Positions 25,642 to 59,564 of a stretch of 64,000 nucleotides of DNA are shown in pieces. Below the pieces are notes generated by a model. That model searched no databases. It was not told the origin of the DNA and worked only from the letters and a program-made list of their open reading frames with translations. Source of the stretch: Pagrus major (lineage: Eukaryota; Chordata; Actinopteri; Spariformes; Sparidae); contig NC_133215.1 in NCBI RefSeq assembly GCF_040436345.1, positions 18,731,306 to 18,795,305 of the forward strand. The letters are read 5' to 3'. The position numbers and the translations under genes are program-made. Numbering within the stretch: the first letter of the stretch is position 1; every line of letters begins with the position of its first letter.

Positions 25642-27435
25642 ATGGACGGGCTGCACATGTTTCTGGTCGTTCTCTTAGGTAAATCTTTTGATGAAATATT
25701 TGGATGATTTAATCACAATTCTTAGGTTCCATTTTGAGAGTAGTTCATTCCTACATTCTCAGTGTTGTTGTGTTGCACCTGCTGTAATGTGAGATCCTGT
25801 AATACTGAGCACATTTCTAACTGCTTTTATGATTGTGTTTGTGTTCCAGGAGTCGTTTCTTACAGTCATGATCAGGTCACTGGATCAGTGTTGGAGGTGT
25901 CAGTCCGACCAGGAGACAACATCACTCTGTACTGTGACTGCAAAAAATCACTTGGAGTTTACATAATGTGGTACAGGAACTGCTCTCATGAGAACCAGCC
26001 TCCGTTTATCCTTAGAATTACAAATTTTAAAACTCATTTTAAGTTTGTGGACAACACTTCCTCTGATTCCTATGACCTGCTGATCATGAACGTCACTGAA
26101 TCAGATGAGGGGCTCTACTACTGTGGAACTCAACAGACAGAAGTGGTGGAAAAAGATAAAATTGCTCCCAAAACTGATTACAGATATGGCAACGTCACAA
26201 CAAGGATCATACTCAGTAAGTATTGTTGTCTGAATTATCTTTGTACCTGAAATATCTGTAATCCTTTGACTAAATTCATACAGTAAGAAGCCCAGATGTT
26301 GTGCACTTATTGATGATGAAAAAGCTGAACCACAACGAAGTTCACTCACCATTCACTGTATGTGAGAATTTTGTACATGAACACAGTGTATTATCATATA
26401 ATACTTTTTTGTCATATCTGGGACTTCATGTAACTGAATTGTTGTAAGTCGTTCTTAAACATGCACCCTTTATGTATTGTTATTCACAGTGAGTTTTGGG
26501 ATAATTTTACATTTGTAATGTGAGAGGACAGGCTCAAACAGGGTTAAAGGTTGCATATTGCACTTATTGCTGGAGTGAGCTAATAATCTAATAAGCCAGA
26601 GACTTTATTCAAATGAGAATAGATATCACTTCAGAGGAGATACTGGAATGGGACCAAAGTTGAGAATAGTCTTATCAACAAGGCAGGGTCAACAGTACAC
26701 TGTGCATCGGTCTTGGCAGGAGACATAATAATGGCAATGCAGGATTTTATTTTATTTTCTGCTCAACAAAGACTTGAGTTTTCCAGCTATCACACTTATG
26801 TCCACATACACATAAAACCATGGTGAACACAATGAAAAAGAAACGTGTATTAATTCTGACATGTTAGTTAGATCAGAAATAACTGAAGCTCATCGACACA
26901 ACTTTGTGTTTCTTCCAGACTCGAGTGAGACTGATCACTGTCAGCCTTCCCGCCCGAATGCACAAGACTGTGATGTGTGCTGGAGACTGCTGTTTTCTCT
27001 GTGTCCAGTTTCTGCTGTTCTCTCCTCTCTCATCTCCGCTCTTGTGGCTTATCATCTCTGTAGAAAGAAAGGTAACTCACTTTTTAATCTTGAAGTAGTA
27101 ATATCACACATTTTGTGAATAATTAATCCACATAATTCATTGACCATGATGCTGTATTTATTTCTGCAGCTCAAGGCCCTCAAGTTGATGAGCAAAAACC
27201 TGAAAGTAGACATCAAACAGGACCAAATCAGGTAGGTGTAACAGTAGAACATAATGCACCATGGCATTAAACAACAGCGTGATCAGGATTGTAAACAAAT
27301 ATCAAATCTTAGGTTGAAGATGTGTGTTACGCTGCACTGGACATCCGTCAGCCATCACAGAGACCAAAGAAGAAGAAGAGAAGTCAGAGTTCTGACTTCA
27401 GCACCTATTCTGCCATCAACACTTCCAGGATGTAG
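25642..27435 (+). CDS. Gene 1: NITR-like inhibitory Ig receptor, two ITIMs
   Basis: Five exons: 25642-25678, 25850-26215, 26919-27071, 27170-27231 and 27313-27435, all with GT-AG borders and consistent phases (1,1,1,0), encoding 246 residues. The leader MDGLHMFLVVLLG continues into exon 2. The V-set domain has YCDCK (B strand), MWYRNCSHE (C strand) and DEGLYYCG (F strand), with a degenerate joining-like end YGNVTTRIIL. Sequons are NIT, NCS, NTS, NVT and NVT. Exon 3 gives a Cys-containing stalk and a transmembrane helix. Exons 4-5 give the tail with VCYAAL and STYSAI, both ITIM-type, around a basic KKKKR patch. The V exon is 24 bases (8 codons) shorter than in genes 2 and 3: the C'-D segment reads ILRITNFKTHFKF. 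AATAAA is at 27527. Structure is firm. NITR membership is inferred. Confidence 0.85.
26634..26670 (+). pseudogene. Relic joining-motif (I-domain-like) sequence in intron 2
   Basis: GAGATACTGGAATGGGACCA and the following AAAGTTGAGA read in part as NGTKVEN. This resembles the end of NITR I-type domain exons (..EILFGNGTKL..) with a few bases lost. The same block lies in intron 2 of genes 2-5 (34281, 41864, 49513 and 58614). The match is short and made from memory of the family. Confidence 0.3.
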
Positions 27436-27526
27436 AGGGCCTAAAACAAAAGAAAAAATGAGTATAATGATGATTGATAAAGAATTATAAAACTAATTGT
27501 CCCCATTTAAAGCGGCAGAACTGGAT

Positions 27527-27532
27527 AATAAA
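27527..27532 (+). terminator. Poly(A) signal, gene 1
   Basis: AATAAA 92 bases after the stop codon, followed about 25-60 bases later by a GTTTTTTGTTGTTG-type GT-rich stretch. Confidence 0.7.
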
Positions 27533-27539
27533 GAAAATT

Positions 27540-29103
27540 TGTATGCATAAAATACAGGGTTTTTTGTTGTTGTTTGTTTGTTTCAAGGTAAAAAGCACTT
27601 GTGTTTCTTTTAAAGGTTAAACTTTATCCTTTAGTGTCAGCTCTCCTCAGAGGATCAGTATAATTGTTGTAAGAAAGAGTTGTATCAGGATGTTATTTGT
27701 TACTTCTCCGACACACAGTACTTATAATGTTGGAATTGCATTTCTACTCTTTAAAGGGGCTCTGCAGAACTTCTGTGTTGTTCTTGAAGTTGGTCGTTAG
27801 TTTAGTCTAGTTAGCAAACTCCATTACTAAACGAACGTTGGCTACTGTTGGCACTGAGACGAGGCACTCGAGAACATGCATAAAGTCACATCCTTTGGGC
27901 TGTCGAAAAAAATCCAATCCGAGTCCTTCACAAAGAAATCCACCATCCAGTAGCATTAAACAACTTCAGCAAATCGTCTACAGGCTTGTATAAGCAGAGA
28001 GAGAGAGACGGAGAAGGTTTCATTTTTCACATCACATTACAATCTGTTCACACGTGGCCAATAAAAAAGTGATTATTACATGTAAATTACTACAAATTGT
28101 TACATAAAGCCCCTTTAACTGGTCAGATTGTTCTATCTGTGTTCTATCATGAACCACAGTGGATATCAGTTCATTCAGCTTTCCCAGAATATATGCATCA
28201 CATGCACTTTATGTCCTTACACCAATTGAATAAAAGATTAAAATGGATGTGCTGTAAAAATGAAGAATAAATAAAAAACCTCCAATTAGAAAACCAGTTT
28301 ATTGTTGTTGATTACAATTCAGCTTCAGCTTCACCTTTTTTGATTGAAATCGATCCGTAACATTTCATAACCATTGTGATGGCTGCTTGTCGGTAACAAG
28401 ACATGATGGCTGTTAGATCAATGTTTTCAGGCAATTTCCTGTTTTTATCTTGAGTTAGCCATCAGCCCCAACCCCTTCATGAGTAGAGTTTGATACAACT
28501 TAGTATTTGTTATGTTGGAGCTGCAGCAGAGGATAAAACTCAAAGTAATCATACTGTACAGAAGCCAAGATGGCTACAGTTTAATGTTCATCCTTAGCTT
28601 ATTTATTTAATGCCCAACTTCTGTTTGTGAGAAGTTACATGACAATATAGTGTTGACAATAAAGCCCACCTTGGCCACATCATGTGGCACCATGTTAGCA
28701 GCTCACAGGAAACCCACATTGACAAACAGCCCCACCTTTACAGAGCTTGACATTCAAACAGTAGGTCAGTGCGCAGTTTCATTGTTCAGAGTTCACTCGA
28801 GTGTCACTGACTCTTGTGCTGGAAGGTGTCAGAATCTTCAGTCAGAATTGAGCGCCTCTGCAGCGGCCTCAGCTACATTTGGATGTACGTATTTCTGACT
28901 CTTGGTCGTATCTGTGGCCACAACATAGAATACGTACTATGCGCTTGTATACACAGATGCCAGTGTTAGTAAGGTGATGATTTTCTTAGCATCCGCATAT
29001 CTATAAAACAATCGTGTCAAATCTAAATAGATTTGAGTGAATTATAACAAATCATACTATTCTGGCTATAATCAGTACATAATCATTGTTTTCGACTAAA
29101 AAT
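27540..29103. repeat. 3' spacer of unit 1, first half of an internal duplication
   Basis: No gene. The block 28260-28900 is similar to 29560-30180 further on. Shared pieces include AAATCGATC.GTAACAT.TCATAA, GGCAATTTCCTGTTTTTATCT and CAGGAAACCCACA.TGACAAACAGCCCC. The unit therefore holds two diverged copies of an older gene-plus-flank module. Confidence 0.6.
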
Positions 29104-29205
29104 GTTAGATCTTGTGTGTTACGCTGTCTGGATATCCACCAGGCATCACAGAAATCGAAGAAGATGAACACTTTCTGACTTTAGTACTTATACTTGGAGC
29201 ATGTA
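29104..29205 (+). pseudogene. Relic cytoplasmic-tail exon (exon 5) in unit 1
   Basis: TGTGTGTTACGCTG followed by a GGATATCC..CAGGCATCACAGA block lines up with exon 5 of the functional gene (TGTGTGTTACGCTGCACTGG, then CAGCCATCACAGAGACC). GAAGAAGATGAACA and TCTGACTT.AG.AC follow in the same order. There is no intact acceptor and the frame is lost. The copies at about 36752-36850 (unit 2) and 44336-44435 (unit 3) are nearly identical. Unit 4 has lost it. Confidence 0.6.
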
Positions 29206-31194
29206 TAACCAAACAAAGACTTTTATTCTTAGCTCAAGTGCTATCAGGAAGTGATTTGTTACCAACTAAACAAATTACAGTAGTAATATATCAAGAAAAC
29301 ATTAATATTTACCCTGTCAACAAGGCATGTAAAGCTTTGGCTCAATGTGCTCAGCATTGTATATCTGGTGAGATGAAACATTTTTCCATGTAAACAATAA
29401 TAATAATCATCATTGTGAACAATTAATGCAATGTTAAATTTCAACTCTGCTGGTATTGATAACAATTTTATGGAGACAAATTTGAAAAAAAAACCAACAA
29501 TATTTACACTATTAGATGCATGAACCACAGTGTATCCATTCTTCCATTTATGAAAAAATATTCACGACTGAATTAATTCCTTTATTCTTTCATTCTTCAC
29601 AGACAAAATGTGTGTTTTATTTCACTCCCCACTTAAATAACAGTGTATAAATTGATCAGATGTACACATTAACCTCTCTATAAAAACATTGTTTGATGTT
29701 GCTGATTGCAAAAAGTGTCAGGTTCAGATTCTTGATTAAAATCGATCTGTAACATCTCATAATGGTAGTGATGGTTGTGTCTCTGTAACAAGACACAAAA
29801 GCTGTTTGCAGGCAATTTCCTGTTTTTATCTCAAGTTAGTTGCCAGCTCACAATCTTTGGCCAGTAGTCCGATACAATTCGAGGTATGATCAGTAAGGCT
29901 TACAGGAAACCCACAGTGACAAACAGCCCCTCATGCACTGCAAAGCTTAACATGCAAACAGACCGAAGCTGCAGGCTGCTGAAGGTGTTTGTGGAATTGG
30001 GTTTGATTTAACAAAAATATCAAAGTTTATTCTAAACATTGTTCCTAATTTGGTTGGACACTTTTTAAAATGTATTTTTTTTAAAGTCTGTTGTTACAGT
30101 TGAGCAAAACCCTGTTCAGTATCCAGCAGCTCTGCAGCCACCTCAGCTACGTTTAGATATACAGCTTATTTCTGAGTCTACGTCAAATGGCTGACCACTT
30201 CCTAACCCTGTGATGTCAATAAAATCAGCTTCAGTTGCTCTTCATGTGAGTATGATTTGTTTGCAGACAGATGCAGAGTGTGGTTTCCTGCAGAGACAAT
30301 GGTCAATGGGGTTATGCTTGAATTATACCATCTCCGTCCTTCAGGTATAAACAAATAACTTGTGTTGTGTTGGATGACAAAAAAATATCATTTTGACTTA
30401 TTAAAGTATTCCTCTAGATTTTTTACACATATTCATAAACACTTGTAGTGAGGATGAGTGTATTGGAAAACACAACATAAGTTTCTCTGTGAAAAACGGA
30501 GAAGGTGGAGATGTGGATGGTGTAATCTGTAAACAGTTAGAAACACCATCTCAAGGTGAAGCTCTGCTGACCTCTAGTGGATATGTAGTAGTAGTAACAC
30601 AAAAAGGCCCAAAAAGAAAGTAGACTCAAAGCAGTCCACACTGATGACACAGTGCTTTATATTAATCTTTTAATTTACCATTGCTACTGGATTCTGTTAC
30701 TGCCAAAAAATACCACACAGAAGTGGCTCTTGAAAAAAATGTCATAAAATGAAATCCCCGGTGGAACAAACGCCCAGTCCAAATGATTTTGAAAGTCTTT
30801 GACTATAGTATTGTTTTGGCGATGCTGTTTGTAGTAGAGAGGGCCTCATATCATCGTTAAGCACTAACAAAACAATCAGATTTTTGCCACAACAGACCGG
30901 CACATGTGTTAGCAACCCTTAGGTTGATTACAACAGAAGCAATACATGATATTCCCAACCTTTCTGACAACACAGACCAGACAAGAGCTATAATTTGTGG
31001 GCAACCCTTGGTGGTAAACAATAAAATGTCTTCATTGTCATGTTCACACTTTCGTGAATTAAATCAGTTTTGTGAAAATCTTAATGTAAATAAAAAATGT
31101 TTGCCTTGTGATATGTAATAAAATTGTTGCCATTTCTAGGAAATAAATAACAAAACACAATGCAGTACATTAATGACAATTACATCAGTCCACT
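29206..31194. repeat. 3' spacer of unit 1, second half
   Basis: No gene. Contains the second copy of the internal duplication (29560-30180), a CTCF-like core (30569-30580) and AT-rich sequence. Confidence 0.6.
30569..30580 (-). promoter_or_regulatory. CTCF-like core, unit 1
   Basis: GACCTCTAGTGG differs at one base from the reverse complement of the CCASYAGRKGGC core (GCCMYCTRSTGG). Identical sites lie at 38218-38229, 45797-45808 and 51743-51754, with another beyond gene 5 at 61267-61278. Confidence 0.35.
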
Positions 31195-31290
31195 TTGTTC
31201 CTACTGGGTTTTCAAGGCTTGATACTGAACAACCCAAGACCCAGTACAGGTCCACGGCCCGGTGGTTGGGAAACCCTGCTTTAATGTGAC
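31195..31290 (-). mobile_element. hAT-like terminal fragment, unit 1
   Basis: On the minus strand the segment reads GCAGGG.TTCCCAACCACCGG GCC GTGGACC, the well-known end of hAT/Charlie-type elements. Paralogous copies are at about 38785-38873, 46425-46513 and 52248-52337. No transposase is present. Confidence 0.45.
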
Positions 31291-31559
31291 CATTATATCC
31301 AATTTATTTTTATGGTGATGTAAAAAACCTGAAAAATGGAAATCTTGTAAAGGCAACAGTTTAGTATAGAAGTGAGCATGTAAGAGTTTAGAGAATATAA
31401 TATATCCAACACAAGTCAGGTGGTACTGAGACAAAAAGGCTCAATTACAAATCTGTCTGCTACTTCAGCACCTCGGACAGCGCCATGGATTTATTAATAC
31501 ACAGCACAGTTAGGCTTCTGATGTTTCTGAGCCATGGTCGAGGCCATGGATTATAACCT

Positions 31560-31808
31560 GGGGCGGCTGTGCGTCAGGGGTAGAACCAGCTTCTTGTTAT
31601 CGGAATGTCGCTGGTTTGATTCCCCTGGTCTGCATGTCGAAGTGTCCTTGGGCAAGATAGTGAACTCCAAACTGCTCCTGATGTGCTGGTTGGCACCTCA
31701 TGGCAGCCACCGCCATCAGTCTATGAGTGTATGTATGAATTACATACTTTTGTGGCTTTGGACAAAAGCGTCTGCTAAATGCCTTGAATGTATAAATGTA
31801 TTAATGTA
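31560..31808 (+). mobile_element. tRNA-derived SINE, unit 1
   Basis: The head, GGGGCGGCTGTGCGTCAGGGG, and GGTTTGATTCC resemble RNA polymerase III A and B boxes. The body has GTGTCCTTGGGCAAGATA and the tail has ACAAAAGCGTCTGCTAAATGC, as in common fish SINEs, then an AATGTATTAATGTA run. It is inserted after 'GGATTATAACCT'. The long + strand open frame here is an artefact. Confidence 0.75.
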
Positions 31809-32399
31809 CAAACCTCGGCCAGAAAAAGTATCAATGAGTCAAGCATCTAGACACATTCAACTTTACAACCCTTCTACCCCTGCACTCTCTCTGCTACTAG
31901 GGTCTCTGATCCCCCCTGTGATGTCCCCTGTCATATTGGATAATTGGTTTCTTGAGACTTTTTAATACTGAGCCAGTAGATCCACAGCAAATAGGTAGGA
32001 ATAGAAAAAAGACAGAAAGTCAGTTTACTATGAGCAAGAACAATAAGAAAAAAATGCTGGAGTTAAAATGATCAAAATTTAGGATTGTAAACCAATAACA
32101 GACCATGTCATTGTATAATTCATTGTCATTTCATCTCCCCCATATTTATTACATTTTTCAGTTCATGAACTGGCTTGAAAATGACTGAACAACACCATCT
32201 ATAGGCAGAACGCCACTTTTAAGGTGGACTGGCAAATTCCAATAAGAAGCTGTGAATCGGACGCCAACTTCAGTGTCGTCTGTTGCAGCGTAGTGGAAAT
32301 CTCTGCATGTGTCTTGCCAGTTTCAAATAAGCCTTTATTATATTAGCGTGTGATTCCAGTGTGGTCAAGGTGTCGATTGGGGTGCCCTGGGTCCCTGGT

Positions 32400-32700
32400 G
32401 AGATCCAATTAGGATATCCACCCCAGCTCCACCCTCTGAATAAGGTCACTTATTCTGGCCACTTAAAAAGCTGGCGACAGCCATAATGCAAACTCAAGGC
32501 ATCCAAACAGTAGTCCACAAACCGATGGGTGGAGTCACAGTGAGTTAACTTTTGGGTTGAACACAAAATCAGATCTCCAGAATACCAACTTTTGGTGTTT
32601 GGGACATTTTCTGAAACAACAAATGATGTCATTTTTCTTGGGAGAAAAGTCTCTAGGGAAGAGATGAGGGTTGAAGTTGAGTTTGGCAGATCAAACAATC
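32400..32700. repeat. Interspersed-repeat-derived 5' part of unit 2
   Basis: The blocks GGCCATAATGCAAACTCAAGG and AACCGATGGGTGGAGTCAC (one base different in some units) resemble a widespread fish repeat. It recurs at 24985-25240, 40030-40300 and 47670-47950. The minus-strand frame across it has no domain and is not a gene. Confidence 0.45.
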
Positions 32701-33261
32701 TACACATGAGCCATACACAGGATGTTTTAGTAAGTATTGATAATATACTTATTCTAATATGATTACTTGTAGGAATTAAAAGCTACAGCCGATGTGATTA
32801 TCACTGGTAACAAGAGTCACTCTCTTTTGTCTCACCCACAGCTGCTATCGAAGACTGGCCTGTTAAATCTTTGAAAATGGCAACAGGCTGCATAGTAACA
32901 ATACATTTACAATTTAAAGTCTCACAACATGAATGTTAAAGAGCGGACGGCATAACCAAGACCAAATATACTACTAGGTCCTTCAAAGGCATTACTCTAC
33001 ATACTGTAGTACTCTTCCAGAACGCTACCATGTAAATGATAACACCTCCTCTAATTATGTTACATCAAAAGGAAACATCAACGAGCAGAATGTCACATAC
33101 TGTGGCATTACACCAATAGAAAACAACCACAGAAGAAATGTTCCACTTGACTGGCCAATCACAGCCTATATTTCCTTTAATGGAAAAGTTTGCGCAAGTT
33201 GTGAAATCAGTGAGAAAGTTTCGCTTCACTGTCTCTTAACTCTCATTCATCATCATCACAG

Positions 33262-35081
33262 ATGGACGGGCTGCACATGTTTCTGGTCGTTCTCTTAGGT
33301 AAAACTTTTGATAAAATATTTGGATGATTTAATCACAATTCTCAGGTTCCATTTTGAGAGTAGTTCATTCCTACATTCTCAGTGTTGTTGTGTTGCACCT
33401 GCTGTAATGTGAGACCCTGTAACACTGAGCACATTTCTAACTGCTTTTATGATTGTGTTTGTGTTCCAGGAGTCGTTTCTTACAGTCATGATCAGGCCAC
33501 TGGATCAGTGTTGGAGGTGTCAGTCCGACCAGGAGACAACATCACTCTGTACTGTGACTGCAAAAAATCACTTGGAGTTTACATAATGTGGTACAGGAAC
33601 TGCTCTCATGAGAACCAGCCTCCGTTTATCATGAAATTTACAAAAGGTAAAGCTGAAGATTTCCTGAAGATGTACCCTCGTTTTAAGTTTGTGAACAACA
33701 CTTCCTCTAATTCCTATGACCTGCTAATCATGAACGTCACTGAATCAGATGAGGGGCTCTACTACTGTGGAACTCAACAGACAGAAGTGGTGGAAAAAGA
33801 TAAAATTGCTCCCAAAACTGATTACAGATATGGCAACGTCACAACAAGGATCATACTCAGTAAGTATTGTTGTCTGAATTATCTTTGTACCTGAATTATC
33901 TGTAATCCTTTAACTAAATTAATTCAGTAAGAAGCCCAGATATTGTGCACTTATATTGATGATGAAAAAGCTGAACCACAACGAAGTTCACTCACCATTC
34001 ACTGTATGTGAAGATTTTGTGCATGAACACAGTGTATTATCATATAATACATTTTTGTCATATCTGGGACTTCATGTAACTGAATTGTTGTAAGTCGTTC
34101 TTAAACATGCACCCTTTATGTATTGTTATTCACAGTGAGTTTTGGGATAATTTTACATTTGTAATGTGAGAGGACAGGCTCAAACAGGGTTAAAGGTTGC
34201 ATATTGCACTTATTGCTGGAGTGAGCTCAAAATCTAATAAGCCAGAGACTTTATTCAAATGAGGATAGATATCTCTTCAGAGGAGATACTGGAATGGGAC
34301 CAAAGTTGAGAATAGTCTTATCAACAAGGCAGGGTCAACAGTACACTGTGCATCGGTCTTGGCAGGAGACATAATAATGGCAATGCAGGATTTTATTTTA
34401 TTTTCTGCTCAACAAAGACTTGAGTTTTCCAGCTATCACACTTATGTCCACATACACATAAAACCATGGTGAACACAATGAAAAAGAAACGTATATTCAT
34501 TCTGACATGTTAGTTAGATCAGAAATAACTGAAGCTCATCGACACAACTTTGTGTTTCTTCCAGACTCGAGTGAGACTGATCACTGTCAGCCTTCCCGCC
34601 CGAATGCACAAGACTGTGATGTGTGCTGGAGACTGCTGTTTTCTCTGTGTCCAGTTTCTGCTGTTCTCTCCTCTCTCATCTCCGCTCTTGTGGCTTATCA
34701 TCTCTGTGGAAAGAAAGGTAACTCACTTTTTAAACTTGAAGTAGTAATATCAGACATTTTGTGAATAATTAATCCACATAATTCATTGACCATGATGCTG
34801 TATTTATTTCTGCAGCTAAAGGCCCTCAAGTTGATGAGCAAAAACCTGAAAGTAGACATCAAACAGGACCAAATCAGGTAGGTGTAACAGTAGAACATAA
34901 TGCACCATGGCATTAAACAACAGCGTGATCAGGATTGTAAACAAATATCAAATCTTAGGTTGAAGATGTGTGTTACGCTGCACTGGACATCCGTCAGCCA
35001 TCACAGAGACCAAAGAAGAAGAAGAGAAGTCAGAGTTCTGACTTCAGCACCTATTCTGCCATCAACACTTCCAGGATGTAG
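33262..35081 (+). CDS. Gene 2: NITR-like inhibitory Ig receptor, two ITIMs
   Basis: Exons 33262-33298, 33470-33859, 34565-34717, 34816-34877 and 34959-35081, encoding 254 residues with the same phases as gene 1. The V domain carries the long C'-D variant IMKFTKGKAEDFLKMYPRFKF and NNTSSNS, and the CDR3-like loop is GTQQTEVVEKDKIAPKT. B-, C- and F-strand motifs and the five sequons are intact. The stalk has DHC and DCDVC cysteines and the helix ends HLCGKKG. The tail, AKGPQVDEQ.., then VEDVCYAALDI and FSTYSAIN, holds two ITIM-type tyrosines. AATAAA is at 35173. Expected to sit in the plasma membrane of leukocytes and recruit SHP-type phosphatases, by analogy with ITIM receptors. Confidence 0.87.
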
Positions 35082-35172
35082 AGGGCCTAAAACAAAACAA
35101 AAAAAGAGTATAATGATGATTGATAAAGAATTATAAAACTAATTGTCCCCATTTAAAGCGGAAGAACTGGAT

Positions 35173-35178
35173 AATAAA
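35173..35178 (+). terminator. Poly(A) signal, gene 2
   Basis: AATAAA 92 bases after the stop codon, in the same context as in gene 1. Confidence 0.7.
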
Positions 35179-35189
35179 GAAAATTTGTA

Positions 35190-38100
35190 TGCATAAAATA
35201 CAGGGTTTTTTGTTGTTGTTTGTTTGTTTCAAGGTAAAAAGCACTTGTGTTTCTTTTAAAGGTTAAACTTTATCCTTTAGTGTCAGCTCTCCTCAGAGGA
35301 TCAGTATAATTGTTGTAAGAAAGAGTTGTATCAGGATGTTATTTGTTACTTCTCCGACACACAGTACTTATAATGTTGGAATTGCATTTCTACTCTTTAA
35401 AGGGGCTCTGCAGAACTTCTGTGTTGTTCTTGAAGTTGGTCGTTAGTTTAGTCTAGTTAGCAAACTCCATTACTAAACGAACGTTGGCTACTGTTGGCAC
35501 TGAGACGAGGCACTCGAGAATGTGCATAAAGTCACATCCTTTGGGCTGTCGAAAAAAATCCAATCCGAGTCCTTCACAAAGAAATCCACCGTCCAGTAGC
35601 ATTAAACAACTTCAGCAAATCGTCTACAGGCTTGTATAAGCAGAGAGAGAGAGAGACGGAGAAGGTTTCATTTTTCACATCACATTACAATCTGCTCACA
35701 CGTGGCCAATAAAAAAGTGATTATTACATGTAAAATACTACAAATTGTTACATAAAGCCCCTTTAACTGGTCAGATTGTTCTATCTGTGTTCTATCATGA
35801 GCCACAGTGGATATCAGTTCATTCAGCTTTCCCAGAATATATGCATCACATGCACTTTATGTCCTTACACCAATTGAATAAAAGATTAAAATGGATGTGC
35901 TGTAAAAATGAAGAATAAATAAAAAACCTCCAATTAGAAAACCAGTTTATTGTTGTTGATTACAATTCAGCTTCAGCTTCACCTTTTTTGATTGAAATCG
36001 ATCCGTAACATTTCATAACCATTGTGATGGCTGCTTGTCGGTAACAAGATATGATGGCTGTTAGATCAATGTTTTCAGGCAATTTCCTGTTTTTATCTTG
36101 AGTTAGCCATCAGCCCCAACCCCTTCATGAGTAGAGTTTGATACAACTTAGTATTTGTTATGTTGGAGCTGCAGCAGAGGATAAAACTCAAAGTAATCAT
36201 ACTGTACAGAAGCCAAGATGGCTACAGTTTAATGTTCATCCTTAGCTTATTTATTTAATGCCCAACTTCTGTTTGTGAGAAGTTACATGACAATATAGTG
36301 TTGACAATAAAGCCCACCTTGGCCACATCATGTGGCACCATGTTAGCAGCTCACAGGAAACCCACATTGACAAACAGCCCCACCTTTACAGAGCTTGACA
36401 TTCAAACAGTAGGTCAGTGCGCAGTTTCATTGTTCAGAGTTCACTCGAGTGTCACTGACTCTTGTGCTGGAAGGTGTCAGAATCTTCAGTCAGAATTGAG
36501 CGCCTCTGCAGCGGCCTCAGCTACATTTGGATGTACGTATTTCTGACTCTTGGTCGTATCTGTGGCCACAACATAGAATACGTACTATGCGCTTGTATAC
36601 ACAGATGCCAGTGTTAGTAAGGTGATGATTTTCTTAGCATCCGCATATCTATAAAACAATCGTGTCAAATCTAAATAGATTTGCGTGAATTATAACAAAT
36701 CATACTATTCTGGCTATAATCAGTACATAATCATTGTTTTCGACTAAAAATGTTAGATCTTGTGTGTTACGCTGTCTGGATATCCACCAGGCATCACAGA
36801 AATCGAAGAAGATGAACACTTTCTGACTTTAGTACTTATACTTGGAGCATGTATAACCAAACAAAGACTTTTATTCTTAGCTTAAGTGCTATCAGGAAGT
36901 GATTTGTTACCAACCAAACAAATTACAGTAGTAATATATCAAGAAAACATTCATATTTACCCTGTCAACAAGGCATGTAAAGCTTTGGCTCAATGTGCTC
37001 AGCATTGTATATCTGGTGAGATGAAACATTTTTCCATGTAAACAATAATAATAATCATCATTGTGAACAATTAATGCAATGTTAAATTTCAACTGTGCTG
37101 GTATTGATAACAATTTTATGGAGACAAATTTGAAAAAAACAACCAACAATATTTACACTATTAGATGCATGAACCACAGTGTATCCATTCTTCCATTTAT
37201 GAAAAAATATTCACGACTGAATTAATTCCTTTATTCTTTCATTCTTCACAGACAAAATGTGTGTTTTATTTCACTCCCCACTTAAATAACAGTGTATAAA
37301 TTGATCAGATGTACACATTAACCTCTCTATAAAAACATTGTTTGATGTTGCTGATTGCAAAAAGTGTCAGGTTCAGATTCTTGATTAAAATCGATCTGTA
37401 ACATCTCATAATGGTGGTGATGGTTGTGTCTCTGTAACAAGACACAAAAGCTGTTTGCAGGCAATTTCCTGTTTTTATCTCAAGTTAGTTGCCAGCTCAC
37501 AATCTTTGGCCAGTAGTCCGATACAATTCGAGGTATGATCAGTAAGGCTTACAGGAAACCCACAGTGACAAACAGCCCCTCATGCACTGCAAAGCTTAAC
37601 ATGCAAACAGACCGAAGCTGCAGGCTGCTGAAGGTGTTTGTGGAATTGGGTTTGATTTAACAAAAATATCAAAGTTTATTCTAAACATTGTTCCTAATTT
37701 GGTTGGACACTTTTTAAAATGTATTTTTTTTAAAGTCTGTTGTTACAGTTGAGCAAAACCCTGTTCAGTATCCAGCAGCTCTGCAGCCACCTCAGCTACA
37801 TTTAGATATACAGCTTATTTCTGAGTCTACGTCAAATGGCTGACCACTTCCTAACCCTGTGATGTCAATAAAATCAGCTTCAGTTGCTCTTCATGTGAGT
37901 GTGATTTGTTTGCAGACAGATGCAGAGTGTGGTTTCCTGCAGAGACAATGGTCAATGGGGTTATGCTTGAATTATACCATCTGCGTCCTTCAGGTATAAA
38001 CAAATAACTTGTGTTGTGTTGGATGACAAAAAAATATCATTTTGACTTATTAAAGTATTCCTCTAGATTTTTTACACATATTCATAAACACTTGTAGTGA

Positions 38101-42762: not shown

Positions 42763-42774
42763 GAAAATTTGTAT

Positions 42775-46424: not shown

Positions 46425-46513
46425 TGTTCCTACTGGGTTTTCAAGGCTTGATACTGAACAACCCAAGACCCAGTACAGGTCCACGGCCCGGTGGTTGGGA
46501 ACCCCTGCTTTAA
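46425..46513 (-). mobile_element. hAT-like terminal fragment, unit 3
   Basis: Minus strand reads GCAGGGGTTCCCAACCACCG GGCCGTGGACC, the typical hAT-type end, here with the best-preserved motif. Confidence 0.45.
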
Positions 46514-46788: not shown

Positions 46789-47038
46789 GGGGCGGCTGTG
46801 CGTCAGGGGTAGAACCAGCTTCTTGTTATCGGAATGTCGCTGGTTTGATTCCCCTGGTCTGCATGTCGAAGTGTCCTTGGGCAAGATAGTGAACTCCAAA
46901 CTGCTCCTGATGTGCTGGTTGGCACCTCATGGCAGCCACCGCCATCAGTCTATGAGTGTATGTATGAATTACATACTTTTGTGGCTTTGGACAAAAGCGT
47001 CTGCTAAATGCCCTGAATGTATAAATGTATTAATGTAC
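46789..47038 (+). mobile_element. tRNA-derived SINE, unit 3
   Basis: Same insertion point and sequence as in unit 1. Confidence 0.75.
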
Positions 47039-48482
47039 AAACCTCGGCCAGAAAAAGTATCAATGAGTCAAGCATCTAGACACATTCAACTTTACAACCC
47101 TTCTGCCCCTGCACTCTCTCTGCTACTAGGGTCTCTGATCCCCCCTGTGATGTCCCCTGTCATATTGGATAATTGGTTTCTTGAGACTTTTTAATACTGA
47201 GCAGGTAGATCCACAGCAAATAGGTAGGAATAGAAAAAAGACAGAAAATCAGTTTACCATGAGCAAGGACAATAAGAAAAAAATCCTAGAGTTAAAATGA
47301 TCAAAATTTAGGATTGTAAACCAATAACAGACCGTGTCATTGTATAATTCATTGTCATTTCATCTCCCCCATATATATTACATTTTTCAGTTCATGAACT
47401 GGCTTGAAAATGACTGAACAACACCCTCTATAGGCAGAATGCCACTTTTAAGGTGGACTGGCAAATTCCAATAAGAAGCTGTGAATCGGACGCCAACTTC
47501 AGTGTCGTCTGTTGCAGCATAGTGGAAATCTCTGCATGTGTCTTGCCAGTTTCAAATAAGTCTTTATTATATTAGCGTGTGATTCCAGTGTGGTCATGGT
47601 GTCGATTGGGGTGCCCTGGGTCCCTGGTGAGATCCAATTAGGATATCCACCCCAGCTCCACCCTCTGAATAAGGTCACTTATTCTGGCCACTTAAAAAGC
47701 TGGCGACGGCCATAATGCAAACTCAAGGCATCCAAACAGTAGTCCACAAACCGATGGGTGGAGTCACAGTGGGTTAACTTTTGGGTTGAACACAAAATCA
47801 GATCTCCAGAATACTAACTTTTGGTGTTTGGGACATTTTCTGAAACAACAAATGATGTCATTTTTCTTGGGAGGAAAGTCTCTAGGGAAGAGATGAGGGT
47901 TGAAGTTGAGTTTGGCAGATCAAACAATCTACACATGAGCCATACACAGGATGTTTTGGTAAGTATTGATAATATACTTATTCTAATATGATTACTTGTA
48001 GGAATTAAAAGCTACAACCGATGTGATCACTGGTAACAAGAGTCACTCTCTTTTGTCTCACCAAGAGCTGCTACCAAAGACTGGCCTGTTATATCTTTGA
48101 AAATGGCAACAGGCTGCATAGTAACAATACATTTACAATTTAAAGTCTCACAACATGAATGTTAAAGAGCGGACGGCATAACAAAGACCAAATATACTAC
48201 TAGGTCCTTCAAAGGCATTACTCTACATAGTACTCTTTCAGAACGCTACCATGTAAATGATAACACCTCCTCTAATTATGTTACATCAAAAGGAAACATC
48301 AACGAGCAGAATGTCACATACTGTGGCATTACACCAATAGAAAACAACCACAGAAGAAATGTTCCACTTGACTGGCCAATCACAGCCTATATTTCCTTTA
48401 ATGGAAAAGTTTGCGCAAGTGGTGAAATCAGTGAGAAAGTTTCGCTTCACTGTCTCTTAACTCTCATTCATCATCATCACAG

Positions 48483-50314
48483 ATGGACGGGCTGCACATG
48501 TTTCTGGTCGTTCTCTTAGGTAAAACTTTTGATAAAATATTTGGATGATTTAATCACAATTCTTAGGTTCCATTTTGAGAGTAGTTCATTCCTACATTCT
48601 CAGTGTTGTTGTGTTGCACCTGCTGTAATGTGAGACCCTGTGACACTGAGCACATTTCTAACTGCTTTTATGATTGTGTTTGTGTTCCAGGAGTTGTTTC
48701 TTACAGTCATGATCAGGTCACTGGATCAGTGTTGGAGGTGTCAGTCCGACCAGGAGACAACATCACTCTGTACTGTGACTGCAAAAAATCACTTGGAGTT
48801 TACATAATGTGGTACAGGAACTGCTCTCATGAGAACCAGCCTCCGTTTATCCTTAGAATTACAAATTTTAAAACTGATATCAAATCAAAAAATAATTTCC
48901 TGATGTACCCTCGTTTTAAGTTTGTGGACAACACTTCCTCTGATTCCTATGACCTGCTGATCATAAACGTCACTGAATCAGATGAGGGGCTCTACTACTG
49001 TGGAACTCAACAGAGAAAAGTGGAGGAAAAAGATAAAATTACTGACAAAACTGATTACAGATATGGCAACGTCACAACAAGGATCATACTCAGTAAGTAT
49101 TGTGGTCTGAATTATCTTTGTACCTGAAATATCTGTAATCCTTTAACTAAATTCATTCAGTAAGAAGCCCAGATGTTGTGCACTTATATTGATGATGAAA
49201 AAGCTGAACCACAACGAAGTTCACTCACCATTCACTATATGTGAGGATTTTGTGCATGAACACAGTGTATTATCATATAATACATTTTTGTCATATCTGG
49301 GACTTCATGTAACTGAATTGTTGTAAGTCGTTCTTAAACATGCACCCTTTATGTATTGTTATTCACAGTGAGTTTTGGGATAATTTTACATTTGTAATGT
49401 GAGAGGACAGGCTCAAACAGGGTTAAAGGTTGCATATTGCACTCATTGCTGGAGTGAGCTCAAAATCTAATAAGCCAGAGACTTTATTCAAATGAGAATA
49501 GATATCACTTCAGAGGAGATACTGGAATGGGACCAAAGTTGAGAATAGTCTTATCAACAAGGCAGGGTCAACAGTACACTGTGCATCGGTCTTGGCAGGA
49601 GACATAATAATGGCAATGCAGGATTTTATTTTATTTTCTGCTCAACAAAGACTTGACTTTTCCAGCTATCACACTTATGTCCACATACACATAAAACCAT
49701 GGTGAACACAATGAAAAAGAAACGTATATTAATTCTGACATGTTAGTTAGATCAGAAATAACTGAAGCTCATCGACACAACTTTGTGTTTCTTCCAGACT
49801 CGAGTGAGACTGATCACTGTCAGCCTTCCCGCCCGAATGCACAAGACTGTGATATGTGCTGGAGACTGCTGTTTTCTCTGTGTCCAGTTTCTGCTGTTCT
49901 CTCCTCTCTCATCTCCGCTCTTGTGGCTTATTATCTCTGTGGAAAGAAAGGTAACTCACTTTTTAATCTTGAAGTATTAATATCACACATTTTGTGAATA
50001 ATTAATCCACATAATTCATTGACCATGATGCTGTATTTATTTCTGCAGCTCAAGGCCCTCAAGGTGATGAGCAAAAACCTGAAAGTAGACATCAAACAGG
50101 ACCAAATCAGGTAGGTGTAACAGTAGAACATAATGCACCATGGCATTAAACAACAGCGTGATCAGGATTGTAAACAAATATCAAATCTTAGGTTGAAGAT
50201 GTGTGTTACGCTGCACTGGAAATCCGTCAGCCATCACAGAGACCAAAGAAGAAGAAGAGAAGTCAGAGTTCTGACTTCAGCACCTATTCTGCCATCAACA
50301 CTTCCAGGATGTAG
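48483..50314 (+). CDS. Gene 4: NITR-like inhibitory Ig receptor, two ITIMs
   Basis: Exons 48483-48519, 48691-49092, 49798-49950, 50049-50110 and 50192-50314, encoding 258 residues, the longest of the set. The C'-D segment starts ILRITNFKT as in gene 1 but is longer (DIKSKNNFLMYPRFKF), with DNTSSDS. The CDR3-like loop is GTQQRKVEEKDKITDKT. Stalk DCDMC, helix end AYYLCGKKG, tail AQGPQGDEQ, then VCYAALEI and STYSAI. AATAAA is at 50406. Canonical splice sites and phases. Confidence 0.87.
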
Positions 50315-50405
50315 AGGGCCTAAAACAAAAGAAAAAAAGAGTATAATGATGATTGATAAAGAATTATAAAACTAATTGTCCCCATTTAAAGCGGCAGAAC
50401 TGGAT

Positions 50406-50411
50406 AATAAA
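50406..50411 (+). terminator. Poly(A) signal, gene 4
   Basis: AATAAA 92 bases after the stop codon. Confidence 0.7.
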
Positions 50412-52247
50412 GAAAATTTGTATGCATAAAATACAGGGTTTTTTGTTGTTGTTTGTTTGTTTCAAGGTAAAAAAGCACTTGTGTTTCTTTTAAAGGTTAA
50501 ACTTTACCCTTTAGTGTCAGCTCTCCTCAGAGGATCAGTATAATTGTTGTAAGAAAGAGTTGTATCAGGATGTTATTTGTTACTTCTCCGACACACAGTA
50601 CTTATAATGTTGGAATTGCATTTCTACTCTTTAAAGGGGCTTTGCAGAACTTCTGTGTTGTTCTTGAAGCTGGTCGTTAGTTTAGTCTAGTTAGCAAACT
50701 CCATTTCTAAACGAACGTTGGCTACTGTTGGCACTGAGACGAGGCACTCGAGAACGTGCATAAAGTCACATCCTTTGGGTCCAGCTCTTTATGATTGTTT
50801 CGTACTGTTCAGGATTTTTTTCCACCATTAGATGCATGAACCACAGTGTATCCATTCTTCCATTTATGAAAACATATTCACGACTGAATTAATTTCTTTA
50901 TTCTTTCATTCTTCACAGACAAAATATTTGTTTTATTTCACTCCCCACTTAAATAACAGTGTATAAATTGATCAGATGTACACATTAACCTCTCTATACA
51001 AACATTGTTTGATGTTGCTGATTGCAAAAAGTGTCAGGTTCAGATTCTTGATTAAAATCGATCTGTAACATCTCATAATGGTGGTGATGATTGTGTCTCT
51101 GTAACGAGACACGAAAGCTGTTTGCGGGCAATTTCCTGTTTTTATCTCAAGTTAGCCACCAGCTCACAATCTGTGGCCAGTAGTCTGATGCAATTCGAGG
51201 TATGATCAGTAAGGCTTACAGGAAACCCACAGTGACAAACAGCCCCTCATGCACTGCAGATCTTAACATGCAAACAGACTGAAGCTGCAGGCTGCTGAGG
51301 GTGTTTGTGGAATTGGGTTTGATTTAACAAAAATATCAAAGTTTATTCTAAACATTGTTCCTAATTTGGTTGGACACTTTTAAAAAGTCTGTAGCTACTG
51401 TTAAGCAAAACCCTGTTCAGTATCCAGCAGCTCTGCAGCCACCTCAGCTACATTTAGATTTACAGCTTTTTTCTGAGTCTATGTCAAATCACTGACCACA
51501 TCCTAACCCTGTGAAATCAATAAAATCATCTTCGGTTGCACTTGAATTATACTATCTGCATCATTGAGGTATATAAAAATAACCTGTTGTGGTGTTTTGG
51601 ATATCAAAAGAAATATTTATTTTGACTTATTAAACTATTCCTCTAGATTTTTTAAACATATTCATAAACACTTGTAGTGAGGATGAGTGTATTGGAAAAC
51701 ACAACATGAGTTAGAAACACCATCTCAAGGTGAAGCTTTGCTGACCTCTAGTGGATATGTTGTAGTAGTAACACAAAAAGGCCCAAGAAGACATTAGACT
51801 CAAAGCAGTCCACAGTGATGACACAATGCCCTTAATATTAATCTTTTAATTAACCATCGCTGCTGGATTCTGTTATTGCCAAAAAATGGGACACATATCA
51901 TCTTTAAGCACTAACAAAACAATCAGATTTTTGCCACAACAGACCGGCACATGTGTTAGCAACCCTTAGGTTGATTACAACAGAAGCAATACATGTTGTG
52001 ATTGTTGTGTGTGTTCTGACAACACAGACCAGACAAGAGCTATAATTTGCGGGTAACCCTGGGTGGTAAACAATAAAATGTTTTCATTGTCATGTTCACA
52101 CTTTCATAAATAAAATCAGCTTTTTGAAAATCTTAATGTAAATACAAAATGTTTGCCTTGTGATATGTAATAAAAAGGTTGCCATTTCTAGGAAATAAAT
52201 AAGAAAACACAATGCAGTACATAAATGGCAATTACATCAGTCCCCTT

Positions 52248-52337
52248 TGTTCCTACTGGGTTTTCACAGCTTGATACTGAACAACCCAAGACCCGGTACG
52301 GGTCCACGGCCCGGTGGTTGGGAACCCCTGCTTTAAT
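52248..52337 (-). mobile_element. hAT-like terminal fragment, unit 4
   Basis: Minus strand begins GCAGGGGTTCCCAACCACCG and continues through GGACC, here with CGTACCGGGTC, closer to the hAT consensus I remember than in the other units. Confidence 0.45.
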
Positions 52338-52690
52338 GTGACCATTATATCCAATTTATTTTACTGATGATATAAATGAAAAACTGGAAAATTGGAAAAA
52401 GCAACGGTTTAGTATAGAAGTGAGCATGTAAGAGTTTAGAGAATATAATATATCCAAGACAAGACAGGTGGTACTGAGACAAAAAGGCTCAATTACAAAT
52501 CTGTCTGCTACTTCAGCACTTCGGACAGCACCATGGATTTATTAATACACAGCAGAATTAGGCTACTGATATTTCTGAGCCATGGTCGAGGCCATGGATT
52601 ATAACCTGTCCAAACCTCGGCCAGATAAAATATCAATGAGTCAAGCATCTAGACATATTCAACTTAACTCTCTGATCCCCCCTCAAATCA

Positions 52691-55339: not shown

Positions 55340-55605
55340 ACCAGCTTTAACTTGCTCTGGAAACAAGATACCCATGTGAGGAATTGTTGGAAAAGAATTA
55401 CTGAAGACATTCTGAATCCCTTCCCTCATTTTCATCTAATGAGAAACCAGTCGTCTGAATCCTGTGACCCGCTGATTATCAACACCACTGAGTCTGATGA
55501 GGTGCTCTGCTACTGTGGAACAGACCGAGTTGGAGGATGAGACAACACTTACCCACAAAATATGTTGATATAAATGGCAATATTACAACAGGGATCCCAT
55601 TGAGT
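55340..55605 (+). pseudogene. Broken V-type Ig exon between units 4 and 5
   Basis: The frame starting near 55352 gives RNCWKRITEDILNPFPHF, then SSESCDPLIINTTESDE and VLCYCGT, clearly the C-to-F strand part of the family V domain. A frameshift follows (QTELEDETTLTHKI is read in the next frame), then a stop and another shift before NGNITTGIPLS and a GTAAGC donor. The B strand and the leader are missing. It is a remnant of a further receptor gene. Confidence 0.75.
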
Positions 55606-56649
55606 AAGCATTCTCTTGGGAATTAGTTGCAGTTAAATTGACAAAAATGTAATTTACAAAGATAATTTTTATTTAGAGGTCTACAATTTATTACTCTCTA
55701 TGCATCAGACTTTGTTGACAGGGAGTTGATGTTATAATTTAGGCTGATCTTTCCTGTCACATATTACCCTCTGACACTGAGAGCATCCTGTTCTGTGGTT
55801 GGTTTAAGAGTTTCGCTTTCTTTGTAACAACATTAGAACAGCATGAAGAAAAAAATTGTGCCTTTATTGACCATTAGCACTTTCCATCCACTTTCCATCA
55901 CAGACAACGATGGATTATTAACGCTAGCCACTGCTGAATCAAATAAGACAGCAGACATCAAATACTATTCCACTGTGATTTTTTATTTTATATTTTTTGT
56001 GAATGTTTGGTCAGCCACAGCACATAAAAATTATTTGAACTTTTTTGTAGGGCTCTGCAAAATGGGTTTGTTGTGGCTGACTATAATATGATGCAGTATC
56101 TTTTTTTTCACAATCCATCCACTGGATGCCCTCAGATGTTCCCACCAGTCCCAATCACCTGACTCTCACATCCACCTGTTCATCTGCTCACCAGCTAGCA
56201 CACTGCCTTATGGTCAATAACCTCTCCTGGGTTGGCCAGTTCCCAGCCTGGATCCCTCAATCCGGTATCTCCTGAACCCTATGAGGCTTCAGTGGACCAG
56301 TTGAGGAGCCACCCTGACGTCCAGTGGCCTTCTTTCATTGTGTCTTGCCCAGCTATTTTTCAGGGTGTACCCCCATTTTGGAATCCTCAGAAGAAAGTGT
56401 GACTCCCAGTGTAATCGGTTTTCTCAGCTGCCCGCTGCCACAGAGCCTCCTGCCCAGCACCGCGGCCAGATCATCAGTCATCTGTCTGCACTACTGTTGG
56501 CTACCACCAAAGTGGCCAAACTTCTGCTCTTGTATCCATTTGTTTGCCTGTCGAGCTGAAGACACTTCTGCCCTCCGGCTATCTGTCACCTGCCCAGCAT
56601 CCAGCCCATGTTTTACATATGCCATCATTATTACTCTAAAAAAACAGTC
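55606..56649. other. Non-coding stretch, no gene seen
   Basis: AT-rich then C-rich sequence (56110-56620), the latter likely a decayed interspersed repeat. No supported exon. Confidence 0.45.
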
Positions 56650-56972
56650 ATTCTGTCTCAAAGAAATGTAAATATTCACCCTGCCCTGGAGGCCTGAATA
56701 CACTATTTCCTGGCTCATTGTAGTTATAGAGGCAAATGCAGTATGAATGCATACATGTACACACATACACATTTACACATATACACACACTTGTGTATGC
56801 ACACACTGACACAGGGCTGCAGTGGGCGATCAAGAAGTTGACATTCGACAAGTGGATGGAAACAGTTGTGGTTTCTGCAGGCCCCGGCCCAACCCTCAAT
56901 GCTGTAGAGGGGCTTGAGCTGAAAATCTTCTGGATGACATCTGCACCAACACACATAGCAACAGTGCTGTAA
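56650..56972 (+). repeat. Dispersed repeat, copy B
   Basis: Second copy of the repeat at 20700-21025, in the same orientation. It ends just before gene 5's 5' homology begins. Family unknown. Confidence 0.65.
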
Positions 56973-57592
56973 AAATCTCTAGTTTTGACTTGTGACGAGT
57001 TTGATGACTTTTAAAACATTTGTTGATGAATGTAATCCGGGTGACATTGCGTTTCTTACAAAACATATCTGCTGTTGCAAATTAGTAGTGCAGAAACACT
57101 GAAACAAGTTTTAATTTATTTGCAGTCATTTTTTTAAGGGTTCATGACTTTTTATGACATAAAATGTCAGTATGTATCTAAACATGAGTTTTCCATGTTG
57201 TACATCTTTGAAAATGGCAACAGGCTGCATAGTAACAATACATTTACAATTTAAAGTCTAACAACATGAATGTTAAAGAGCGGACGGCATAACCAAGACC
57301 AAATATACTCTAGGTCCTTCAAAGGCATTACTCTATGTAGTACTCTTCCAGAACGCTACCATGTAAATGATAACACCTCCTCTAGGTATGTTACATCAAA
57401 AGGAAACATCAACGAGAAGAATGTCACATACTGTGGCATTACACCAATAGAAAACAACCACAGAAGAAATGTTCCACTTGACTGGCCAGTCACCGCCTAT
57501 ATTTCCTTTAATGGAAAAGTTTGCGCAAGTGGTGAAATCAGTGAGAAAGTTTTGCTTCACTGTCTTTTAACTCTCATTCATCATCATCACAG

Positions 57593-59564
57593 ATGGACGG
57601 GCTGCACATGTTTCTGGTTGTTCTCTTAGGTAAATCTTTTGATAAAATATTTGGATGATTTAATCACAATTCTTAGGTTCCATTTTGAGAGTAGTTCATT
57701 CCTACATTCTCAGTGTTGTTGTGTTGCACCTGCTGTCATGTGAGACCCTGTAACACTGAGCACATTTCTAACTGCTTTTATGATTGTGTTTGTGTTCTAG
57801 GAGTTGTTTCTTACAGTCATGATCAGGTCACTGGATCAGTGTTGGAGGTGTCAGTCCGACCAGGAGACAACATCACTCTGTACTGTGACTGCAAAAGATC
57901 AACTGGAGTTTACATACTGTGGTACAGGAACTGCTCTCATGAGAACCAGCCTCCGTTTATCCTTGAAACTGCAACGCATCAAAAGGACCACCTGAAGATT
58001 TTCCCTCATTTTAAGTTTGTGGACAACACTTCCTCTAATTCCTATGACCTGCTAATCATGAACGTCACTGAATCAGATGAGGGGCTCTACTACTGTGGAA
58101 CTCAACAGACAAAAGTGGAGGAAAAAGATTACATTGCTCCCAAAACTGATTACAGATATGGCAACGTCACAACAAGGATCATACTCAGTAAGTATTGTGG
58201 TCTGAATTATCTTTGTACCTGAAATATCTTTAATCCTTTGACTAAATTCATACAGTAAGAAGCCCAGATATTGTGCACTTATATTGATGATGAAAAAGCT
58301 GAACCACAACGAAGTTCACTCACCATTTACTATGTATGTATGTGAGGATTTTGTGCATGAACACAGTGTATTATCATGTAATACATTTTTGTCATATCTG
58401 GGACTTCATGTAACTGAATTGTTGTAAGTCGTTCTTAAACATGCACCCTTTATGTATTTTTATTCACAGTGAGTTTTGGGATAATTTTACATTTGTAATG
58501 TGAGAGGACAGGCTCAAACAGGGTTAAAGGTTGCATATTGCACTTATTGCTGGAGTGAGCTGAAAATCTAATAAGCCAGAGACTTTATTCAAATGAGAAT
58601 AGATATCACTTCAGAGGAGATACTGGAACGGGCCCAAAGTTGAGAATAGTCTTATCAACAAGGCAAGGTCAACAGTACACTGTGCATCGGTCTTGGCAGG
58701 AGATACAATAATGGCAATGCCAGATTTTATTTTATTTTTTGCTCAAGGAAAACTTGAGTTTTCCAAGAAACCCTTTGTACTAGATTTTAATCCAATAGTG
58801 TGTTTATTCTTGTTAATATGTGGGTTTGTTGGTGTCTGGGGTCATGGAACAACTATCACACTTATGTCCACATACACATAAAACCATGGTGAACACAATG
58901 AAAAAGAAACGTATTTTCATTATGACATGTTAGTTAGATCAGAGATAACTGAAGCTCATCGAGACAACTTTGTGTTTCTTCCAGACTCGAGTGAGACTGA
59001 TCACTGTCAGCCTTCCCGCCCGAATGCACAAGACCGTGTTGTGTCCTGGATGTTGGTCTTCTCTCCAGCCTTCACCATCCTCGCGTCCGCCCTCTCCTTT
59101 ATTTTGGTTTATCACTTCTTTCAGAGAGCAGGTACTTACTGTTATGTCGGTTGTTTTTTAAATATTTTTTTTCCTCTTACTTCAGGTTATGTTAAAACAG
59201 TTATTTAAATATTTAGGGGAGTTGTCATTATATCACGATATTTGCAAAAGTATTGCCTTTGGGTGTTACTCTGTAATAATGCCGTATTTATTTTTGTAGA
59301 TAAGGAACCTGAAACCCTCCAGAAAAGACCTGACACCAGGAGAGAAGCAAAATGGAATCAGGTAATGAAGAGTAATACTTTGGGAATTTTAAATGTATTT
59401 GTATTGTATCTGTCAGAAATCTTTCATTATAATAACACAACAGTAGATACATAATAATAATTCTAAGTAACAAAAATAATAAATGTCAAACTGTCTCTCA
59501 GGATGAAGATGTGTATTTCACACATGTTGTGTTCCGGGCACAGGAGGCACAAACACATCAGTAG
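57593..59564 (+). CDS. Gene 5: NITR-like Ig receptor with a different, ITIM-less tail
   Basis: Exons 57593-57629, 57801-58187, 58985-59131, 59300-59361 and 59502-59564, encoding 231 residues. Leader and V domain match genes 1-4 (YCDCK, WYRNCSHE, YYCG, five sequons), with CDR1-like KRSTGVYIL and C'-D segment ILETATHQKDHLKIFPHF. Exon 3 starts identically (stalk SSETDHCQPSRPNAQD) and then changes to another helix (WMLVFSPAFTILASAL..) without charged residues. Exon 4 (DKEPETLQKRP..) and exon 5 (DEDVYFTHVVFRAQEAQTHQ) are unrelated to genes 1-4. The single tail tyrosine, DVYFTH, does not fit an ITIM. It could act with a partner, as a decoy, or be losing function. AATAAA candidate at 59943. Confidence 0.83.
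58837..58869 (+). pseudogene. Joining-segment-like motif in intron 2 of gene 5
   Basis: In one frame the sequence reads WGHGTTITLMS, matching the (F/W)GxGTxLTV joining/G-strand motif. It lies in about 90 bases present only in gene 5's intron 2. The downstream half (CTATCACACTTATGTCC) is shared with genes 1-4. There is no splice donor after it and a stop follows within a few codons, so it reads as a relic of another Ig exon, not a working J segment. Confidence 0.35.

Follow-up and report, generated by a model that had tools for sequence, protein, structure and literature searches.

A tandem island of single-V receptor genes in Pagrus major, probably distinct from NITRs as defined

Introduction

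To which receptor family do five closely related genes on one contig of Pagrus major belong, and what might a gene with essentially the same binding head and another tail be doing among them? The window, i.e. the whole stretch of DNA analysed (64,000 nucleotides; C1:18731306-18795305 in our contig numbering), carries a cluster of variable (V)-domain genes, here numbered 1 to 5. A sequence-only reading had described them as complete receptors, four with two immunoreceptor tyrosine-based inhibitory motifs (ITIMs), which fitted the teleost NITR group or could form a distinct branch. Natural killer (NK)-type receptor repertoires of fish are patchily known, and the locus is a caution that not every YAAL-tailed single-V fish gene is a NITR. 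We judge it likely that the cluster is a germline, non-rearranging island of single-V receptors, expanded in tandem and not NITR as that family is defined, with genes 1-4 inhibitory and gene 5 a partner or decoy.

Receptor anatomy

The cluster extends from the ATG of gene 1 (25642) to the stop codon of gene 5 (59564) and consists of five five-exon genes, all on the forward strand and head to tail. Coordinates are given in Table 1. In these predicted models all 20 introns are bounded by GT-AG, the intron phases are 1,1,1,0 in every gene and there are no internal stops, such that the complete, equally phased genes proposed from the letters alone were recovered with exact coordinates. The exon plan is likewise common to all five: leader (37 nt), V (366-402 nt), stalk plus transmembrane (TM) segment, short cytoplasmic exon (62 nt) and tail. 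The coding frame of the V exon is free of stops in each gene, whereas the other five frames hold 3-15 stops each. As had been read, each protein has a signal-like leader followed by a single V domain and a TM segment; both proteins scanned (genes 2 and 5) matched the Pfam V-set model (E 2e-12). A six-frame Pfam scan of window positions 1-29.9 kb (E<=0.01) returned the V-set of gene 1, with other Ig models overlapping it, and nothing else.

Using the consensus (S/I/V/L)xYxx(I/V/L), two ITIMs (VCYAAL and STYSAI) were found in each of genes 1-4, in agreement with the description of ITIM-bearing single-V receptors. Gene 5, whose tail ends EDVYFTHVVFRAQEAQTHQ, had no match. No charged residue occurred in the best 21-residue TM stretch of any of the five genes. 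Genes 1-4 thus carry the combination of cytoplasmic ITIMs and uncharged TM segment that marks inhibitory-type NITRs.

Sequence variation among the V domains

Variation among the five heads is concentrated in the loops. Variable amino-acid positions made up 23/47 loop positions versus 7/83 in the framework (Fisher P 3e-7), giving the V-domain diversity noted earlier a precise location: 14/18 positions of the CDR2-like block (complementarity-determining region, CDR), 7/20 of the CDR3-like loop and 2/9 of CDR1 were variable. The same block stood out in the DNA of the V exon, with 26/51 variable columns compared to 22/339 elsewhere (P 6e-14), and its length also differs among genes. The assignment of loop positions rests on alignment. 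The introns and downstream exons of genes 1-4 differ by 0-3.2%.

The pattern of informative sites was not uniform along the units. Downstream of the ATG, 20 of 23 informative sites among genes 1-4 grouped genes 1/4 and 2/3, as do the types of the CDR2-like block, whereas 5 of 8 upstream sites grouped genes 1/2 and 3/4. This shift across the ATG was significant (Fisher P 0.007, 30/31 sites; one site grouping 1/3 and 2/4 was omitted) and is what would be expected if units had exchanged sequence.

Composition of gene 5

Gene 5 is a mosaic. In common with genes 1-4 it has the upstream DNA, leader, V exon, intron 2 and stalk, in a block that ends inside the TM exon, just 3' of the stalk codons. Within this block most 50-bp windows held 45-50 identical positions, the hypervariable window 33/47. 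Intron 2 of gene 5 differs by 4.0-4.6% from those of genes 1-4 and contains an insertion of some 84-92 bp near 58766-58849. Beyond the border, 42-45% of the columns aligned with gene 2 are different in exons 4-5 and introns 3-4, and the divergence covers the whole TM segment and tail, beyond the mere absence of ITIMs. Gene 5 is best read as the product of a module exchange that would have given a non-ITIM partner. A decayed gene at 62.5 kb carries the same type of tail as gene 5, suggesting that the cluster already possessed this tail when the 5' half was joined to it.

A parallel is found in Siglec-11 and Siglec-16, which, in the available text of PMC5701461, share their 5' exons through gene conversion and have similar glycan binding preferences. 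As in the window genes, 5' exons and ligand-binding head are held in common and the signalling halves differ. The Siglecs are an unrelated family and, in contrast to the parallel, the TM segment of gene 5 lacks charged residues, such that an activating role is not indicated. Since gene 5 has neither an ITIM nor a TM charge to recruit an activating adaptor, its most probable role is that of a non-inhibitory partner or a decoy directed at the same ligand class.

Relationship to NITRs

To place the cluster, the genome (786 Mb, 25 contigs) was searched with the V exon of gene 2, scoring 150 of 262 first-look candidates, such that the count of weak matches is a lower bound. At least 76 matches were obtained at E<=1e-3. 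Five (84-100% identity) were the window genes and one (49%) was the relic at 55.4 kb; the remaining 70 had 25-41% identity. Close copies in this genome are thus found only in the window, as five V exons and one relic. Among the candidates scored, the best 19 matches outside the window all fell on contig C21 and none on C10. Ten flanking loci, covering 40 kb to the left and 60 kb to the right, gave 0/10 matches at E<=1e-3. Further V-like exons, with 25-37% identity to the window V exon, were seen at C23:17.26 and 25.04-25.10 Mb, C18:33.72 Mb and C10:18.77-18.92 Mb.

According to the available text of PMC2442602, NITRs are marked by an I domain with six conserved cysteines, a J motif and synteny with men1/map4k2/rtn3. 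In that text the I domain served as a search criterion and some members have none, a J (FGXGTXLXV) or J-like motif ends the V and/or I domain in nearly all medaka NITRs, and men1 is linked to NITRs in medaka and zebrafish; fgfrl1/spon2 is a second conserved neighbourhood of NITR clusters. A cluster of this type exists in the present genome on another contig (C10:18.94-19.14 Mb; loci L019-L023, L032 and L034). Its I domains have six cysteines (counted by eye) and J motifs of FGNGTKLDF type; V and I share one exon in L019 and L022 and occupy separate exons in L023 and L032. On the same contig men1 lies at 14.3 Mb, 4.6 Mb from the cluster. The window sits apart from both, on C1 beside stim and rbpj. 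None of its five gene models, each with a single V exon, contains a second Ig exon or I domain. The V domains end in YGNVTTRIIL (YGNVRTRIIL in gene 3), where FGXG is absent and TRIIL has I at the position at which TXLX(V/L/I) needs L, although a looser, 'partial' J-like reading can be made.

A tree was built from 33 V domains of this genome, seven of them NITR V rows and with the I domain NITRlike_L023_966 dropped. In it the window genes formed a clade with 100/100 support and the NITR V domains a clade (97/98) that excluded them; in an earlier tree that included NITRlike_L023_966 the NITR V rows were supported at 91/91. The window V clade lies outside the sampled NITR V domains of its own genome. 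Catfish NITR11 had 23% identity to the window V domain over 93 columns and has neither extra cysteine. In a two-target local comparison the gene 2 V domain scored 34.7 bits against a single-chain antibody fragment (scFv) light chain and 31.9 against NITR11.

Several results weigh against the reading of the cluster as a non-NITR island of diversified receptors. In approximately unbiased (AU) tests, a tree joining window and NITR V domains had p 0.585 and stood 0.95 log units above the free tree, with a long-branch warning; joining the window to light-chain V domains gave p 0.579 and 0.79 log units, and joining it to TRAV-like domains was also kept (p 0.205). The best V identity was 33.7% to a TRAV-like domain versus 30.2% to NITR-type rows, a small gap. 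The tail layout resembles that of NITRs: the NITR-type genes of this genome have tails of the form LHYAAL-basic-VYSSV or LQYVALDF-basic-VYSRI, encoded by a last exon comparable in length, and the start of that exon was consistent with phase 0 in 4/4 cases checked, as in the window. With respect to selection, pN (nonsynonymous) exceeded pS (synonymous) in 10/10 V-exon pairs, yet bootstrap P was 0.083 for genes 1-4, or 0.385 once the hypervariable block was removed, and 0.056 for genes 1-5, or 0.219 with that block removed. Positive selection on the V exons therefore falls short of the 5% level and is not proposed. Such ratios are thin here, since pN also exceeded pS in the post-V region of genes 1-4 (bootstrap 0.002) solely through zero synonymous changes. 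An AlphaFold model of the five V exons was unusable (mean pLDDT, the predicted local confidence score, 38.6), and the role given to gene 5 is a guess.

The rival that survives best holds that these are NITRs, NK-type inhibitory receptors, that no longer have an I domain or a J motif and have moved away from their cluster. The likeness is considerable: both groups have germline-encoded V domains in type I proteins, a last exon encoding two ITIMs, one of them of YAAL type, and teleost tandem clusters; a five-exon plan can be inferred for a NITR without its I domain, and the tail layout, phase and AU result above would suit it. Against it stand the separate NITR V clade in both trees, the location on another contig than both the NITR cluster and men1, the C21 origin of the best outside matches, the two extra V cysteines and the distance to NITR11. 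The likeness of the tails to those of NITRs was reached by 2-5/2000 full shuffles but by 146-372/2000 shuffles that kept both ITIMs, and tail homology is not claimed. We consider this rival unlikely. Membership of the NITRs was rejected on I domain, J motif and cluster location, with ITIMs present in genes 1-4 and the V grouping at p 0.585. The suspicion of a distinct branch has thus gained from the separate C10 cluster and the 97/98 clade, the filing under NITR has lost, and a sister-group relationship between the two is left standing by the AU test.

Comparison with other families

The most distinctive mark of the window V domains is a pair of extra cysteines at IMGT-like positions 25 and 45, present together in 5/5 window genes and 0/29 other own-genome domains sampled. 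In gene 2 they are residues 43 and 57, a CX13C spacing. Singly, the first occurred in one NITR row and the second in one IGHV row of the 29. The V domains of the C10 loci L023 and L034 read LLCSCQ, so the window is not alone in having CxC at the first cysteine.

TCR alpha/delta-like V segments are nearest by score in the same genome, the C21 locus of the best 19 outside matches being putatively TCR alpha/delta-like to judge from its sequences and its recombination-like signals. Recombination signal sequence (RSS)-like signals were looked for in the window, five C10 loci and seven TCR/Ig-type loci (C21/C16/C3/C23). They were present in 7/7 of the latter, and none was found in the window or in the C10 loci (0/5). 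The window V exons instead end in a splice donor and are joined to TM and tail exons, unlike TCR/Ig V genes. A profile comparison with the PDB (E<=1e-5) returned 52 distinct sequences, mostly antibody light-chain V domains and also CEA and CD226, with no NITR, CD300 or TREM entry among them.

Another teleost Ig-superfamily group (DICP, CMRF35/CD300-like, pIgR-like or CD28/PD-1-like), or an unnamed family widespread in percomorphs, is a still more doubtful home. Similar V domains of the form WFRNCSH...YGNxTTR, combined with tails of the form VCYASL...STYSEV, are present in other teleosts, percomorphs included, in predicted proteins that are uncharacterised. A literature search by sequence string and topic, in which few subscription papers were covered, gave no title describing the family. 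The cysteine pattern matches neither CD300 nor NILT as described in the available texts. CD300 has two cysteine pairs and a WCR motif in strand C (PMC3031540); strand C of the window reads WYRNC, which speaks against CD300/pIgR-like membership. Like the window genes, NILTs have a single V-type domain, are tightly clustered and encode their ITIMs in a phase-0 exon preceded by phase-1 introns (PMC3022915). They differ, in that text, in their extra V cysteines (CX3C/CX6C/CX7C) and in six exons including one for a connecting peptide, compared to CX13C and five exons without it in the window; cysteine spacing and exon number speak against NILT membership. Capture of the receptor by viruses was also discarded, as viral contigs scanned with the V alignment gave 86 matching stretches and 0 tblastn relatives.

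Proposed function and significance

Under the preferred reading of a non-NITR island, tandem duplication would have expanded a set of single-V type I membrane receptors. If expressed, genes 1-4 would be clustered by ligand binding, after which a Src-family kinase may phosphorylate both tail ITIMs and SHP-1/SHP-2 could be recruited, damping activation. ITIM-dependent recruitment of SHP-1/SHP-2 has been reported for catfish LITR tails (available text of PMC4810170), and the proposal for genes 1-4 is made by analogy. Gene 5 would present essentially the same head on another TM segment and tail through exchange of a 5' module with its border inside the TM exon, by gene conversion or unequal crossing-over. 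As the main difference among the five heads, the CDR2-like loop (C'-C''-D) probably sets ligand specificity.

We advance a more far-reaching version only tentatively: the genes may form a separate teleost family, unrelated to NITR, NILT or CD300, that arose when a TCR alpha/delta-like V domain became joined to an ITIM tail. Its framework would be near-invariant and its CDR2-like cassette swappable, and recombination in the TM exon would transfer 5' modules (upstream DNA, leader, V and stalk) between tails with and without ITIMs. Inhibitory receptors and decoy partners would then stay matched in binding.

All close copies found in this genome lie within 34 kb, small enough for a block knockout. 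The near-identical heads are coupled to ITIM tails in genes 1-4 and to a non-ITIM tail in gene 5, a natural comparison that makes the specificity of the CDR2-like loop, and inhibition versus decoy function, directly testable.

Tandem array and genomic context

Self-comparison of the window revealed a tandem array (Table 1). Unit-to-unit alignments longer than 2.5 kb had 96.3-98.7% identity, the portion downstream of gene 4 91-93%. It is highly improbable that some units are artefacts of haplotigs assembled in tandem and not real genes, as the 98.7% identity across one 7.6-kb unit alignment (31173-38765 versus 38763-46344) might suggest, given the in-frame V-exon length changes and several indels that distinguish units, the site patterns that shift along the unit and the different 3' half of gene 5. 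Relics of the ITIM exon, the V exon and a gene-5-type gene suggest that the five intact genes are what remains of an older and larger set.

Table 1 Features of the window (positions in the window)
Feature	Position	Strand	Description
Tandem array	24223..52608	+	units ~7.6 kb, first and last incomplete; left edge near 24223
Gene 1	25642..27435	+	exons 25642-25678, 25850-26215, 26919-27071, 27170-27231, 27313-27435; 246 aa; two ITIMs; shortest CDR2-like block
Gene 2	33262..35081	+	exons 33262-33298, 33470-33859, 34565-34717, 34816-34877, 34959-35081; 254 aa; two ITIMs
Gene 3	40848..42665	+	exons 40848-40884, 41056-41445, 42149-42301, 42400-42461, 42543-42665; 254 aa; two ITIMs
Gene 4	48483..50314	+	exons 48483-48519, 48691-49092, 49798-49950, 50049-50110, 50192-50314; 258 aa; two ITIMs; longest CDR2-like block
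Gene 5	57593..59564	+	exons 57593-57629, 57801-58187, 58985-59131, 59300-59361, 59502-59564; 231 aa; no ITIM; distinct TM and tail (EDVYFTHVVF)
Block common to gene 5 and genes 1-4	57201..59034	+	ends inside TM exon
Decayed V-exon relic	55401..55625	+	69% DNA identity to gene 2 over 231 aligned columns; not intact
Decayed gene-5-type relic	62396..62732	+	V-exon end 62396-62451, tail exon 62568-62732; tail Tyr -> Cys
Decayed extra ITIM-exon copy	29113..29168	+	82% to gene 2, 57 columns
Decayed ITIM-exon copy	36761-36816
Decayed ITIM-exon copy	44345-44400

No RNA families (at gathering score) or tRNAs were detected in the window. In the left 40 kb flank no gene was recognised in the list of open reading frames. 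Within 60 kb of the right flank (C1, L009-L014) we named by eye STIM (SOAR and SAM), RBPJ (TIG_SUH), SMIM18 and GTF2E2, pieces of all four being backed by Pfam; for GTF2E2 two TFIIE-beta-type matches fell just under the Pfam cut-offs and the N-terminal piece was unmatched.

Repeats were also seen in and around the array. The string AAAAGCGTCTGCTAAATG, presumably a core of vertebrate SINEs (short interspersed elements), occurs in each of three units (31764-31781, 39358-39375 and 46993-47010; chance expectation 0.11). A dispersed repeat pair, 82% identical, lies to the left of the array (20800-21018) and between genes 4 and 5 (56775-56976), and a long TA/GATA simple-repeat tract occupies about 60490-60730, ~1 kb 3' of gene 5.

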